In this document: positions 1-25,457 of the stretch, in pieces
Numbering within the stretch: position 1 is the first letter of the stretch
Layout of the letters: each line of letters opens with the position of its first letter
DNA from: Planctomycetia bacterium
Lineage (GTDB): Bacteria > Planctomycetota > Phycisphaerae > Phycisphaerales > SM1A02
NCBI GenBank assembly: GCA_005799495.1
Contig: SYGP01000026.1
Span: 1-34,665, forward strand
Length of the DNA: 34,665 bases
Direction: 5' to 3'
The notes under the pieces: generated by a model
Database searches by the model: none
Told to the model about the DNA's origin: nothing
The model's input: the letters and a program-made list of their open reading frames with translations, nothing else
Position numbers and translations under genes: made by a program

Positions 1-593
1 GCCTCGCGCACCCACAGATCCCTGCTGCCGCCCTCGCTCACAAGGTCATCGTTGACCGACTGGATGCAGCAGGCGTGTGGCTGCGGGTGCGTGTATGCGT
101 CCTGCGCGAGCGAGACGGCGCCCGTGCTGTGATGTGCGATCCAGTGTCCTTGCGCGGGACCGTTGATCCCGTACGCCCAGGCGAGCCCGGTGTTGAACCA
201 CTGCGGACTGTTGGGGGCCGCCATCTGGTGGACGAGCATGAACGCCAGTTCGTCGTAAAACGCCTGCGCATCCGCGGGCGAATCGAAGTAGCCGTGCGTT
301 TCGCCCCAGTGCCGCCAGCAGCCCGCGAGACGGTGCACGACCTGCTGCACGGAACGCTCCGGGCCGTGCGTGATGCTGCCGTCCTCGTGCAGTGTGGGAA
401 CGCCAGCCTTGCGGAAGTACTTGCTCACGACGATGTCCGTGGCAAGTTGGCTCCACTCCTTCGGAATCTGCGCGTCGTCCATCGCGAAGACGGTCGATCC
501 GTCTGGGTTCTTGATCTTGCTCGAGCGGGTCGTCCACTCGGTCGTGCTGTAGACATCCGTGTCTGCTGTGGTGAAGCGGCGTTCGATCTTCAT
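1..593 (-). CDS. nrdJ: Class II (B12-dependent) ribonucleotide reductase, N-terminal part
   Basis: Reduces ribonucleotides to deoxyribonucleotides using adenosylcobalamin; cytoplasmic. Only the first 197 codons are in the window and the gene runs off the left edge. The start is the ATG at 593-591, preceded by AGGA seven bases upstream. The translation begins MKIERRFTTADTDVYSTTEW and contains the segment typical of NrdJ N-termini (PNSPQWFNTGLAWAYGI, then QPHACCIQSVNDDLVSEGGS with the first active-site cysteine region). It follows dcd on the same strand with a 95-base gap, so the two probably form a dNTP-synthesis operon. Family assignment is from recognised motifs. The radical-site cysteines lie outside the window, so activity cannot be judged. 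Confidence 0.9.
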   Translation of the reverse strand, partial: MKIERRFTTADTDVYSTTEWTTRSSKIKNPDGSTVFAMDDAQIPKEWSQLATDIVVSKYFRKAGVPTLHEDGSITHGPERSVQQVVHRLAGCWRHWGETHGYFDSPADAQAFYDELAFMLVHQMAAPNSPQWFNTGLAWAYGINGPAQGHWIAHHSTGAVSLAQDAYTHPQPHACCIQSVNDDLVSEGGSRDLWVRE

Positions 594-688: not shown

Positions 689-1285
689 TCAGGGAGAATG
701 AGGCGAGTGTGAGTTGCCGTCGACGCGGGGCAGGGTGAGTCCCTGCTGATCCTGGTACTTGCCACCCTTGTCTGCATAGCTGACGGCGCAGATGCGATCC
801 GCCTTCAGGAAGAGCATCTGTGCGATGCCCTCATTGGCGTAGATGCGCGCAGGCAGCGGGGTGGTGTTGGAGATTTCGATCGTCACCTTTCCGCGCCACT
901 CGGGCTCGAGGGGTGTGACGTTGACGATGATGCCGCAGCGGGCGTAGGTGCTCTTTCCCACGCACACTGCGAGCACATCACGCGGCACCGAAAAAACCTC
1001 GACGGTCTCGGCGAGCGCAAATGAATTGGGCGGAATGATGACGTGGTCGCGTCCTGTCAGTTCCGTGTCGATGGAAATGAAGAGGTCGCTCGAGAAGTTC
1101 TTCGGATCGACCACCGCAACGCCGCCGCTCGTGGCATTCGTGAAGATCTTGAACTTCGTGCCAACGCGAACGTCATAGCCGTAGCTCGAAACGCCGTAGG
1201 AAATGACGCCGCTTCGCTTGCGGCTCTCCTCGAAGGGTTCGATGCCGACGAGTTCGCGGATTTGAGTGTCGCACAGAATGCCCAT
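689..1285 (-). CDS. dcd: dCTP deaminase
   Basis: Deaminates dCTP to dUTP, the route to dTTP; cytoplasmic trimer of the dUTPase fold. The 198-residue product has the family core: GKSTYAR at 110-116, [12 protein letters not shown] at 121-132, and [12 protein letters not shown] at 134-145 with the catalytic glutamate at 137. It resembles the long dCTP deaminase subtype found in many Gram-negatives. The open frame extends 18 codons upstream, but the ATG at 1285 has a GGGAG Shine-Dalgarno nine bases before it and the usual family N-terminus. It is first in the dcd-nrdJ operon. NrdR-like boxes overlap its candidate promoter. A bifunctional dUMP-forming enzyme is less likely but not excluded by sequence reading. 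Confidence 0.93.
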
Positions 1286-1359: not shown

Positions 1360-1387
1360 ACGATACCCCAACATCTTGGGGTCGCAA
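1360..1387 (-). promoter_or_regulatory. Candidate dcd-nrdJ promoter
   Basis: On the minus strand, TTGCGA (1387-1382) and TATCGT (1365-1360) are separated by exactly 16 bases. Each matches the sigma-70 consensus at four of six positions. The spacer is the perfect palindrome described as NrdR-like box 1, so a repressor bound there would block polymerase directly. The leader to the dcd ATG would be about 70 bases. Confidence 0.45.
1366..1381 (-). promoter_or_regulatory. NrdR-like box 1
   Basis: The minus strand reads CCCCAAGATGTTGGGG, a palindrome with six-base arms around GATG. It matches every strongly conserved position of the NrdR box core (C-W-A-N-A-T-N-T-W-G), although the outer ACA/TGT bases are replaced by CCC/GGG. 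NrdR represses ribonucleotide reductase genes, which fits a dcd-nrdJ operon. Its position in the spacer between the candidate -35 and -10 is typical of a repressor site. Confidence 0.5.
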
Positions 1388-1397
1388 GAGGCAAGCG

Positions 1398-1413
1398 ACC
1401 ACAAATACTGGGG
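1398..1413 (-). promoter_or_regulatory. Degenerate NrdR-like box 2
   Basis: On the plus strand this reads ACCACAAATACTGGGG. It matches box 1 at about nine or ten of 16 positions, mainly in the right half, and starts exactly 32 bases from box 1. NrdR normally binds paired boxes about three helical turns (31-32 bp) apart, and that spacing is the main reason for reporting this weak match. Confidence 0.3.
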
Positions 1414-1539
1414 GCTCTCCATCGCATCGGCAAGTTCACCGTAACTCCTTGAACCAACGGCAACTTGAGCTGCTCCCACCCAGCTGCACGCCGCCCTAGG
1501 CAGTGTGGACAGGTTGTCGGACCTTCGCCGGCACATCCC

Positions 1540-1545
1540 TAGACT
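1540..1545 (+). promoter_or_regulatory. -10-like element TAGACT of pcrA
   Basis: TAGACT lies seven bases before the GTG at 1553. No good -35 is visible at normal spacing. If it is a -10 box, transcription would begin at or next to the start codon, giving a leaderless message. Confidence 0.4.
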
Positions 1546-1552
1546 CGCTCGC

Positions 1553-3868
1553 GTGGAGCAGAGTTCGCTTTCGGTTTGCTTCGATGGATTGACGCCGCAG
1601 CAGCGCGCAGCGGTCGAGCACGGGAGCGGTCCGCTGCTGGTGCTGGCGGGGCCTGGGTCGGGGAAAACACGCGTGATTACGCGGCGAATCGCGGCGCGCA
1701 TCGCGCAGGGAGTTCCCGCATGGTCGATCCTCGCGCTGACATTCTCGAACAAGGCTGCGCGCGAAATGCGCACGCGAGTCGAGTCGCTGTGCGGCAGCCG
1801 CGCCGTGGGGCGCGGTGGGCCAACCATCAGCACATTTCACGCGTTTTCCGCGCAGTTGCTGCGCCGCTACGGCGCATCATCGCTCGCCGCGGGACTCGGC
1901 ACTGCGCCGCTGCGCGAGGACTTCTCGATCCTCGATGCGGACGATGCGGCGACGGCGCTGCGTCAAGCGATCTCCGATTCGGGGCTCGATCCGAAGCAGT
2001 GGCGAACCTCCACGGTGGCGGCGCACATTTCGCGGGCGAAGAACCAGTTGTGGACCGCGGTGGAACACGCATCCCAAGCCACCGACTTCCTCGATCGGAC
2101 CGTGGCGAAGGTGCATGCGGCCTACGAGCGCGAGGTGGCTCGGCAGAACGCGCTCGACTTCGATGATCTCCTCACGCGCTGCGCGCGCATGCTCCGCGAC
2201 GATGCGGAACTGCGCGCACAGTTGCAGCAAGGCTACGAAGAGGTCCTCGTCGACGAGTACCAGGACACGAATCACCCGCAGTTCGTCATCGCCAGCTTGC
2301 TCGCACAGCAGCACCGCAACATCTGCGTCGTCGGCGATCCCGACCAGTCCATCTATGGTTGGCGTGGCGCAGACCTCAGCAACATCCTCGAGTTCGAGAA
2401 GCATTTTCCACGCGCGGTCATCGTGCCGCTCGGCGAGAACTTCCGCTCGACGGGACACATCGTGGCAACGGCTGCGCGGCTGATTCTCCACAACGGCAAG
2501 CGCCGCCACAAGGAGCTGCACACTTCGCTCGGCGAAGGTGCGATCGTCGAGGTGGTGCGACTCGACAACGAGATCGCGGAGGCCGAACGCGTCGCGCAGT
2601 CCATCGAGCGGCAGCAGGCGGAGGGCATGCCGCTGCGCGAGATGGCCGTCTTGATGCGGATGAACGCCCTGACGCGCGTGGTGGAAGATGCGCTGCGCCG
2701 CCGCAACATCCCGTGTGTCATTGCGCGCGGCACGGCGTTCTTCGAGCGCCGGGAGGTGCGCGACGCACTCGCCTACCTGCGCCTGATCGCGAACCCACTC
2801 GATGAAGTCTCCCTGCAGCGCATCGTGAACGTGCCGACGCGCGGCATCGGCGGCACGACCATGCAGCGCATCGGCAACGCGGCGGCGCTTCGGCGGATCG
2901 CCCTGATCGATGCGATGCAGCAGGCGCGCGGGTTCGGAATCGCCGAGCGAACTGCGAAGTCCATCGACGGATTCGTGGCGCTGATCGCTCGCGCGCGTTC
3001 CGAACTGGATGTGAAGCCTGCCTCCAACCTCGGAGGGTTCGTCTCGCGGGTGCTGCTCGAAACCGGGCTGGGCCGTGCCGCTGCGGCGAGCGCGGAGACC
3101 GAGGAGGAAGGCGCAGAGCGTGAAGCGAATGTCACCGAAGTCGCGAATGCCGCCGCGCTGCATGAGATGCCGGAGGGCGATCCCTCGGCAACTCCGCCAA
3201 CCCTCGGCGACGCGCTGCGATCGTTTCTCGAATCGGTGGCGCTCGTCGCGGACGCTGACGCGGTGGACCCGGAGAAGGGTGCAGTCACGCTCATGACCCT
3301 GCATGCATCCAAGGGACTCGAGTTCGACAGCATCTTCATCATCGGGCTCGAAGAGGGGCTGCTCCCGCATGCACGCTCCCTCGGCAGCCCCGATGAAGTG
3401 GAGGAGGAACGCCGCCTGTTGTACGTGGGCATCACGCGCGCACGCCGTCACCTGCTGCTGACGACCTGCGCTTCGCGGACGGTTCGCGGCTTGCAGGAGC
3501 GCGCCATCGAGAGTGGATTCCTCCGCGAGATCGCCGGCGAAGGAGTGGTCAGCAGCGATGAGGCCGATGGCATCGGGCAAACGCGCATGCGTGAACCATC
3601 GGTGATGCGGCGATTCGGCGGGTCGCATGGCGAGTCGGGTGCCGCGGCTCGACCGTCGCTTCCCGCCGCGGGCGTCGGCGGTTCTCGGCAGGTGCCCGCG
3701 GGGATTCGTGTGGGCACGGTCGTGCGCCATGCGCAGTTCGGCGTGGGGCGCATCACCGCGCTGTTGCCGCGCGGCAGCATGACAAGCGTGGAGGTGGACT
3801 TCCGTCCTGGTGGGCGAAGAACGCTCGTCCTCGAATACGCGCGTCTCGAAATCGTCGTCGGTTCGTGA
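1553..3868 (+). CDS. pcrA: ATP-dependent DNA helicase, UvrD/PcrA type
   Basis: Superfamily 1A 3'-5' helicase acting in repair and in clearing proteins or R-loops from DNA. Helicase motifs appear in order: LAGPGSGKT (Walker A lysine at 38), TFSNKAAREM, STFHAFS, the Walker B segment VDEYQDTN, GDPDQSIYGWRGA, NFRST, TLHASKGLEF and YVGITRARRHL. The C-terminal end (VRHAQFGVGRITALL onward) is the Tudor-like tail of PcrA/UvrD. The product is 771 residues, normal for the family. I chose the GTG at 1553, seven bases after a TAGACT element. An in-frame GTG at 1505 would add 16 residues and has no better ribosome binding site. It converges on the next gene with a nine-base gap. Rep is an alternative name, but the tail favours PcrA/UvrD. 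Confidence 0.93.
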   Translation: MEQSSLSVCFDGLTPQQRAAVEHGSGPLLVLAGPGSGKTRVITRRIAARIAQGVPAWSILALTFSNKAAREMRTRVESLCGSRAVGRGGPTISTFHAFSAQLLRRYGASSLAAGLGTAPLREDFSILDADDAATALRQAISDSGLDPKQWRTSTVAAHISRAKNQLWTAVEHASQATDFLDRTVAKVHAAYEREVARQNALDFDDLLTRCARMLRDDAELRAQLQQGYEEVLVDEYQDTNHPQFVIASLLAQQHRNICVVGDPDQSIYGWRGADLSNILEFEKHFPRAVIVPLGENFRSTGHIVATAARLILHNGKRRHKELHTSLGEGAIVEVVRLDNEIAEAERVAQSIERQQAEGMPLREMAVLMRMNALTRVVEDALRRRNIPCVIARGTAFFERREVRDALAYLRLIANPLDEVSLQRIVNVPTRGIGGTTMQRIGNAAALRRIALIDAMQQARGFGIAERTAKSIDGFVALIARARSELDVKPASNLGGFVSRVLLETGLGRAAAASAETEEEGAEREANVTEVANAAALHEMPEGDPSATPPTLGDALRSFLESVALVADADAVDPEKGAVTLMTLHASKGLEFDSIFIIGLEEGLLPHARSLGSPDEVEEERRLLYVGITRARRHLLLTTCASRTVRGLQERAIESGFLREIAGEGVVSSDEADGIGQTRMREPSVMRRFGGSHGESGAAARPSLPAAGVGGSRQVPAGIRVGTVVRHAQFGVGRITALLPRGSMTSVEVDFRPGGRRTLVLEYARLEIVVGS

Positions 3869-24635: not shown

Positions 24636-25457
24636 ATGCCGATCAGTGCGGAAGCCCAGTCGCAGATTGAGACCATCCTTGGGCATCGCTTTTCCGACCC
24701 CGCTCTGATCGCATGTGCGCTCACGCACGCTTCGTTCGCCACCGTCCGGACCGACAGCAACGAACGCCTTGAGCTCCTCGGCGACAGCATCCTGGGCTTC
24801 ATCGTCTGCGAGCATCTCTTTGCGCGCTACCCCGAGGCGGACGAAGGAACGCTCACGAAGCTCAAGTCGTACCTCGTGAGCAGGGCAAAGTGTGCGGAGT
24901 ATTCCGCGCACCTTGGGCTGTCCCCGCTCATCATTGTCGGGAAGGGGTTCGCAGGGAGCGCACTGCCCATTTCGATCGCGGGCAGCTGCCTCGAAGCACT
25001 GATCGCAGCGCTCTACCTCGATGCTGGGCTGGATGCCGCGCGAGCATTCGTACTGCGCACCGTCGAGCCACATGTCGAATCGGCATACAGAACGGGTCAT
25101 CAGATGAATTTCAAGAGCGTTCTGCAGCAGGTGGCGCAGGCGATGAGTGCAGGCGTTCCCGTGTACTGCGTGGTCGATCAGCAGGGGCCAGATCACTCCA
25201 AAGCCTTCGCGGTTCGCGCGGAACTTGGTGAACGCGCATTCGAGCCGCAGTGGGGGCTCACCAAGAAGTCCGCCGAACAGGCGGCTGCACTGGCGGCGCT
25301 TCGGGAACTGGGACTCGCCGAGGGTGACGAGCCCGAAGTCAGGATCCGCTTTGATCGTCTCGCTTCTGCCGCTCAGGCGAGCGCGGATGCGAGCGTGGCG
25401 GACACGTCTGCGGGCGGCGCATCACCATCGACCGTCAGATCTGCGAGCGATTCGTAG
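24636..25457 (+). CDS. rnc: Ribonuclease III with altered metal-site residue
   Basis: Cleaves double-stranded RNA, matures rRNA and processes mRNA. The 273-residue product has the signature NERLELLGDSILGF (Glu43, Glu46, Asp50), the second metal segment ending in Glu120 (SCLEALIAALYLD), and a C-terminal double-stranded RNA-binding domain from about 155 to 230. At the position of E. coli Asp114 it has Ser117. A low-complexity Ala/Ser tail of about 30 residues follows the RNA-binding domain, and this tail is the part that overlaps aroK. The ATG at 24636 has GGAG about six bases upstream. Confidence 0.93.
   Translation: MPISAEAQSQIETILGHRFSDPALIACALTHASFATVRTDSNERLELLGDSILGFIVCEHLFARYPEADEGTLTKLKSYLVSRAKCAEYSAHLGLSPLIIVGKGFAGSALPISIAGSCLEALIAALYLDAGLDAARAFVLRTVEPHVESAYRTGHQMNFKSVLQQVAQAMSAGVPVYCVVDQQGPDHSKAFAVRAELGERAFEPQWGLTKKSAEQAAALAALRELGLAEGDEPEVRIRFDRLASAAQASADASVADTSAGGASPSTVRSASDS

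Follow-up and report, generated by a model that had tools for sequence, protein, structure and literature searches.

A putative tandem NrdR operator spanning the dcd–nrdJ promoter in Phycisphaerae-like planctomycetes

Introduction

The DNA upstream of dcd in this uncultured, probably Phycisphaerae-like planctomycete raises a simple question: is the palindrome lying between the candidate −35 and −10 elements an operator of the repressor NrdR, and would dCTP deaminase then share its control with the ribonucleotide reductase encoded next to it? The original prediction, made from the window (the whole stretch of 34,665 bases analysed here), read positions 1360–1413 as tandem NrdR-like boxes in the promoter of a dcd–nrdJ operon. 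We examined it by comparing 60 genomes, this one and relatives from its order, represented by 50 dcd upstream stretches of 450 bases and 10 nrdJ upstream stretches of up to 700 bases without a dcd hit; in G007, neither dcd nor nrdJ was found. Published NrdR systems are cited from PMC9110341, PMC12051234 and PMC12176259.

Results

The dcd–nrdJ unit and its neighbours

The first gene of the unit, dcd (692–1285, minus strand, stop codon at 689–691), encodes dCTP deaminase, with 154.5 bits to TIGR02274 (cut-off 92.8) and a match to PF22769. It is followed after a gap of 98 bp by nrdJ (3–593, minus strand), which encodes the N-terminal 197 residues of a class II (B12-dependent) ribonucleotide reductase (PF08471, 1.3e-35) and runs out of the window; truncation keeps its partial match to PRK07562 (1.4e-85) below the cut-off for a full-length protein. 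Another contig of the genome (C12, positions 1–1500) begins with an open frame and a match to the reductase C-terminus, and nrdJ thus seems, from these two fragments, to have been split by the assembly. No match to the class I small subunit (NrdB-type, PF00268) or to NrdD (PF13597) was found in this genome, rated 97.8% complete, and the single hit to the large-chain reductase family is the C-terminal fragment on C12; for these reasons, nrdJ seems to be the genome's one reductase.

The arrangement is widespread in the order. Among the genomes bearing dcd, 48 of 50 have nrdJ following it on the same strand less than 2.5 kb away; the distance is below 300 bp in 31 and above 300 bp in 17 of the 48. 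We infer that dcd and nrdJ are co-transcribed as one unit. The divergent neighbour (1505–3868, on the strand opposite to dcd) is a UvrD/PcrA-type helicase by family match. Between it and the promoter region, a stretch resembling CAAGT...CAA..GTTA (within 1415–1515) appears by eye to be kept in many same-genus genomes and is perhaps the helicase promoter.

A palindromic box fills the predicted promoter spacer

Read along the minus strand, the region runs from a distal box (box 1, 1414–1399) through 11 bases to a −35-like hexamer TTGCGA (1387–1382), a promoter-proximal box (box 2, 1381–1366), a −10-like hexamer TATCGT (1365–1360) and a leader of 74 bases before dcd. Box 2, CCCCAAGATGTTGGGG, was found where predicted and satisfies the NrdR core C-N-A-N-A-T-N-T-N-G within a 16-bp palindrome, as all six core positions (C4, A6, A8, T9, T11 and G13) are present. 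The claim that a perfect palindrome forms the spacer between the −35 and −10 elements stood in part: the two hexamers lie exactly 16 bp apart, the length of the palindrome, but positions 7 and 10 of box 2 are both G and remain unpaired, one inner mismatch. Just outside the palindrome, the additional A/T pair 1365/1382 does match.

A generic sigma-70 scan of positions 550–1600 gave no promoter at the scan threshold, and the assignment of the dcd promoter therefore rests on conservation. In an alignment of 41 operators from the order, TTG adjoins box 2 in 40 rows and TANNNT directly follows it in all 41, figures to be read knowing that the rows were partly chosen for their fit to the −35 and −10 elements, respectively.

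The leader (1286–1359) has features of its own. In 11 of the 18 genomes of this genus (leaders L022–L039), the word TGTGGGT recurs at varying distances between the −10 element and the start of dcd. No RNA family reached the Rfam gathering threshold in the leaders of 15 loci and the leader fold was not above shuffles (z 0.44), so that neither an RNA family nor a stable fold accounts for TGTGGGT.

The partner box is degenerate and one base further away than predicted

A second, degenerate copy near box 2 was also expected from the original prediction, and it exists: box 1, CCCCCAGTATTTGTGG (1399–1414, minus strand), keeps C4, A6, T11 and G13 and has TA in place of AT at its centre, or four of the six core bases. 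The predicted distance of exactly 32 bases did not hold. The partner scores 4/6 whether read at 32 or at 33, and it is the gap-free alignment with sisters such as G016, whose box ATTCAAGATATTGTGG has all six core bases, that sets the distance to 33, leaving an inter-box spacer of 17 bp (1382–1398) which contains the −35 element. The right half of box 1, TTGTGG, holds its 11-base distance to the −35 as it does in the sisters. Across 18 same-genus genomes, the distance is 33 in 14 (some with a degenerate box 1), 31 in two and 32 in one, while G005 has box 2 only; box 1 carries the complete core at the same distance of 33 in 7 of the 18. In the rest of the order, a distance of 31 (15-bp spacer) is the commonest.

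The left half of box 1 is altered in this genome and in three sisters (G003, G006 and G009), all of which retain C4, A6, T11 and G13 and score 4/6; the centre is TA in this genome, G003 and G006, and TG in G009. The outer bases CCC/GGG, which the original prediction considered possibly lineage-specific, are so in a narrow sense: CCCC..GGGG occurs in this species and the same three sisters, but most of the genus has CCA..GGG. As judged from the aligned genomes, the CCC/GGG flanks are a trait of this sub-clade; ACA/TGT-like flanks occur in other families.

NrdR sites with spacers of 14–17 bp (or 24–27 bp) bind in published assays (PMC12051234), a range that includes the 17 bp found here, and a functional NrdR box with a non-canonical AG centre is described in E. 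coli (PMC12176259). A possible adjustment of the protein was considered and set aside: NrdR linker length does not differ with the length of the operator spacer, in a thin comparison of 29 of 31 loci that lacks the 17-bp-spacer genomes G014 and G001 and in which the linker of this genome equals that of 28 other proteins, none from a 17-bp-spacer genome. We also rejected a third, downstream box of the kind seen in E. coli nrdAB, as the candidate CGTCGTGTGG, conserved in four sister species, has only 4/6 core bases and lies at a variable distance within the genus.

The regulator is present

Absence of nrdR from the genome had been named as an observation that would count against an NrdR site. 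The gene is present, on contig C32, with a match over the curated cut-off of the TIGR00244 equivalog family, and all 61 genomes, this one included, have it at E ≤ 0.001, 60 of them over the curated cut-off. Its translation of 165 residues combines a CxxC..CxxC zinc ribbon (C3, C6, C31 and C34), R12, D15 and R17, the RRRR motif at R26–R29, R37 and an ATP-cone, and it matches five NrdR chain sequences in the PDB (6.6e-32 to 4.6e-31). The arginines together with D15 and R17 are DNA-contact positions in S. coelicolor NrdR (PMC9110341). Around the nrdR gene of this genome, we found neither a box pair with at least 11 of 12 core bases, a threshold that the genome's own dcd site would also miss, nor, among the 150 of 292 first-look candidates scored, a match to the operator profile described below; there is no sign, at the sequence level, of self-regulation of nrdR in this genome.

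The box pair is conserved upstream of dcd and nrdJ

Aligned over 18 same-genus genomes, the region ahead of dcd has a mean column identity of 0.96 across box 2, 0.94 across the −35, 0.78 across the −10 and 0.72 across box 1; the flanks and the 11-base stretch that separates box 1 from the −35 show 0.50–0.58. The palindrome and its partner are likewise conserved beyond the genus, as the original prediction required of relatives. Of the 60 genomes, 38 have a core pair with at least 11 of 12 bases at a distance of 31–33 ahead of dcd or nrdJ; 100 shuffles gave 0.1 such genomes on average and never more than 2. Requiring all 12 bases leaves 26 of 60 against 0.02, and the reversed motif gives no pair in any of the 60. 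The 11-of-12 pair is present in 24 of 36 genera. The examined stretch holds no strict pair in 22 of the 60 genomes; this genome is one of them because of its degenerate box 1.

Simpler patterns were less informative. An ad hoc NrdR consensus gave no match in the window, which tells little, and the published NrdR box pattern gave no pair there, as box 1 of this species fails it. A single box is unspecific: its 14-base core version occurs in 20 places per strand of this genome versus 14 for the reversed pattern, and a profile of the whole pair was therefore needed. The only other full six-base core in the window (25068–25077) is absent from the matches of that profile at E ≤ 10.

The profile, R1, is a sequence-only model of 53 positions built from 41 operators, the aligned rows having been picked for their fit to the core, −35 and −10 (42 of 60, minus the duplicate operator of G055). 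Since this selection inflates them, the invariant columns of the alignment are unusable as a measure of conservation. In this genome, the sole match at E ≤ 1, and still at E ≤ 10, is 1360–1413 on the minus strand (E 1.5e-9), a score that is not independent, its own operator being in the training set; 150 of 292 first-look candidates were scored, and a weak second site could be missed. Scored at every position of the window, R1 gives 38.9 bits at the operator, followed by 8.1 bits on the other strand of the same palindrome and then by 4.3 bits.

Genomes outside training offer a fairer trial. With stricter filters and no more than 95 candidates scored per genome, the best R1 match of 15 of these 20 (of 61) falls at most 1 kb ahead of dcd or nrdJ, in the same orientation (G005, G018, G020, G024, G029, G031, G033, G034, G042, G046, G049, G050, G051, G054 and G055, the last with an operator identical to that of a training genome). 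Such matches reach E ≤ 0.01 in 12 of the 20, and the weakest, in G042, stands at 0.45. The five without a match near either gene are G007, in which neither dcd nor nrdJ was found, G027, whose best match is elsewhere, and G023, G037 and G053, with no match; by simple core count, G053 nevertheless holds a 6+6 pair at a distance of 32. Further weak R1 matches were seen in some relatives, the best on contig C18 of G049 (E 0.0037) and contig C16 of G035 (E 0.007).

A second sample, the best 80 GTDB loci around dcd, showed that the operator accompanies the gene pair. At E ≤ 0.001, R1 matches 20 of these best 80 loci, always upstream of dcd and on its strand; two of the twenty (L181 and L182) hold training-set operators and others may be near kin of training genomes. 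Among the best 80, the match is present in 19 of 23 loci with an nrdJ N-terminus downstream in the fetched stretch (L196, L199, L203 and L242 being the four without it) versus 1 of 57 without nrdJ in that stretch, the one being L201, on a contig that stops 184 bp past dcd. Counting core bases (at least 11 of 12 in 500 bases upstream) separates the same 80 loci more weakly, 12 of 23 with nrdJ versus 2 of 57 without, these two being L201 and the alphaproteobacterial L210.

Words of another kind occur in the same upstream regions: TTATCCACA, which we take to be a perfect DnaA box, precedes dcd in 4 of 60 genomes (G021, G040, G044 and G060, loci L050, L060, L048 and L052) versus a shuffle mean of 0.1, and the looser word TTWTNCACA in 7 of 60 versus 1.9 in shuffles. 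DnaA is named as a binder of an E. coli reductase promoter (PMC12176259).

Discussion

We read the region 1360–1413 as an NrdR operator, two boxes spaced by about three helical turns across the dcd–nrdJ promoter, with a probability of roughly 0.9. The boxes, their conservation, an nrdR gene encoding the zinc and DNA-contact residues and a single operator among the scored candidates identify it as such at the level of prediction, with the second box of this species as a doubtful feature, and the tandem NrdR-type site originally proposed is thereby upheld. It is reasonable to assume, by analogy with studied systems, that NrdR would bind and repress at dcd–nrdJ.

Several other explanations have to be weighed against this. 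The palindrome could have arisen by chance in GC-rich intergenic DNA, given that palindromes with 7-bp arms and a 4-bp gap number six in the window, box 2 included. By itself, the box 2 palindrome is no rarer than chance, and conservation is the argument beyond chance: an identity of 0.96 over 18 same-genus genomes where the flanks show about 0.5, together with pairs in 38 of 60 genomes where 0.1 would be expected, reduces this explanation to a negligible one. The palindrome could also be the operator of another repressor, such as LexA, its likeness to an NrdR box being accidental. The helicase gene next door is compatible with this, and so is the same 16-mer, CCCCAACATCTTGGGG, on contig C18 of G049 (L142, position 1387), some hundred bases before an ORF that is presumably LexA-like and coincident with the weak R1 match at E 0.0037 in that genome. 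The layout, however, goes with nrdJ: of the 10 genomes that have nrdJ and lack a dcd hit, 9 have their best R1 match upstream of nrdJ (all but G023; six of the nine being training rows), and the operator is nearly absent from dcd loci lacking nrdJ in the fetched stretch (the 1 of 57 among the best 80 GTDB loci). The exact 16-mer occurs in 5 of 61 genomes; in four, all of one genus, it precedes dcd, and in G049 it lies elsewhere. With 14 fixed bases, one stray copy in 61 genomes is by estimate about what chance would give (the reversed pattern has none), and we take it as chance rather than as a second real site. No second R1 site was found in this genome among the scored candidates, and the 16-mer lies near a lexA-like ORF in one relative only. 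An operator of a different repressor seems very improbable to us.

A different concern is that the tandem site has decayed in this sub-clade, box 1 being unbound and box 2 kept mainly as a promoter spacer or a weak single site. This overlaps with our preferred explanation, as the site would still be an NrdR operator by origin, and the weights given to the two need not sum to one. The four genomes with only four core bases in box 1 fit such a decay. In S. coelicolor, substitutions in the conserved GC pairs of a single box weakened binding about 50-fold (PMC9110341), and an ill-fitting box pair was bound weakly in E. coli (PMC12176259). Nevertheless, all four genomes retain TTGTGG and the C4/G13 pairs of box 1, the latter carrying the sequence specificity (PMC9110341), and the ends of box 2 are more symmetric here than in most of the genus. 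We consider decay unlikely on balance, while giving it more weight than either of the other alternatives.

Taking the site as a working NrdR operator, one of its closest counterparts is nrdRJ of Streptomyces coelicolor, where the target is also a class II nrdJ, a pair of palindromic boxes some three helical turns from each other covers the RNA polymerase site, and the repressor has the same contact residues as NrdR of this genome (PMC9110341). Unlike there, the unit begins here with dcd and not nrdR, which is on another contig (C32), the spacer is of 17 bp and box 1 is degenerate. Escherichia coli nrdHIEF, nrdDG and nrdAB share a box pair about 15 bp apart in the promoter, and nrdAB tolerates a non-canonical box centre (PMC12176259); however, E. 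coli has three reductase operons, whereas no PF00268 or PF13597 match was found here. In a helix-phase study of Listeria and Streptococcus NrdR sites, spacers of 14–17 bp bind well, which covers the present case (PMC12051234); the difference is that 17 bp is found in 14 of 18 genomes of this genus, the most frequent spacer elsewhere in the order being 15 bp.

In published work, DNA binding by NrdR requires dATP together with ATP, and the repressor carrying only ATP does not bind (PMC9110341, PMC12051234). We hypothesize that a rise in dATP would let NrdR loaded with both nucleotides form a tetramer gripping the two boxes and kinking the DNA at each of them. Because box 2 is the promoter spacer itself, such a tetramer would exclude RNA polymerase from the dcd–nrdJ promoter, and repression would lower dCTP deaminase in concert with the class II reductase. 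Once dATP drops, ATP-loaded NrdR would assemble into non-binding oligomers and the unit would be transcribed. A single dATP signal could thus set both the total dNTP supply and the flow from dCTP to dTTP, since the product of dcd converts dCTP to dUTP for dTTP synthesis.

Extended to the group, the hypothesis becomes more tentative. Phycisphaerae-like planctomycetes may have one main NrdR operator inside the dcd–nrdJ promoter spacer, through which a dATP sensor switches both activities, and in this sub-clade the operator may have shifted to a 17-bp spacer and a distal box with a TA centre, still bound by NrdR while departing from the published box rule; we regard this full picture as possible, with the balance somewhat against it. 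The control system as such is known, and what is modestly new, as far as literature searches show, is the placement of dcd first in an NrdR-controlled unit across the group. Among the papers listed, no title or abstract opening connects NrdR with dcd; PMC6925170, PMC10504254 and PMC10100675 name both NrdR and dcd or dCTP deaminase. The NrdR regulons of Rodionov and Gelfand (2005) and RegPrecise may already include dcd somewhere.

Taken together, these observations add a little-studied planctomycete group to those in which the NrdR operator is seen with its box layout. In this group, dCTP deaminase, which feeds dTTP synthesis, and the reductase would answer to one dATP-sensing repressor, and this shared control would tie the amount of DNA precursors to their balance. 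For the latitude of the NrdR box rule, the sub-clade that combines a TA-centred distal box with a 17-bp spacer offers a natural test.
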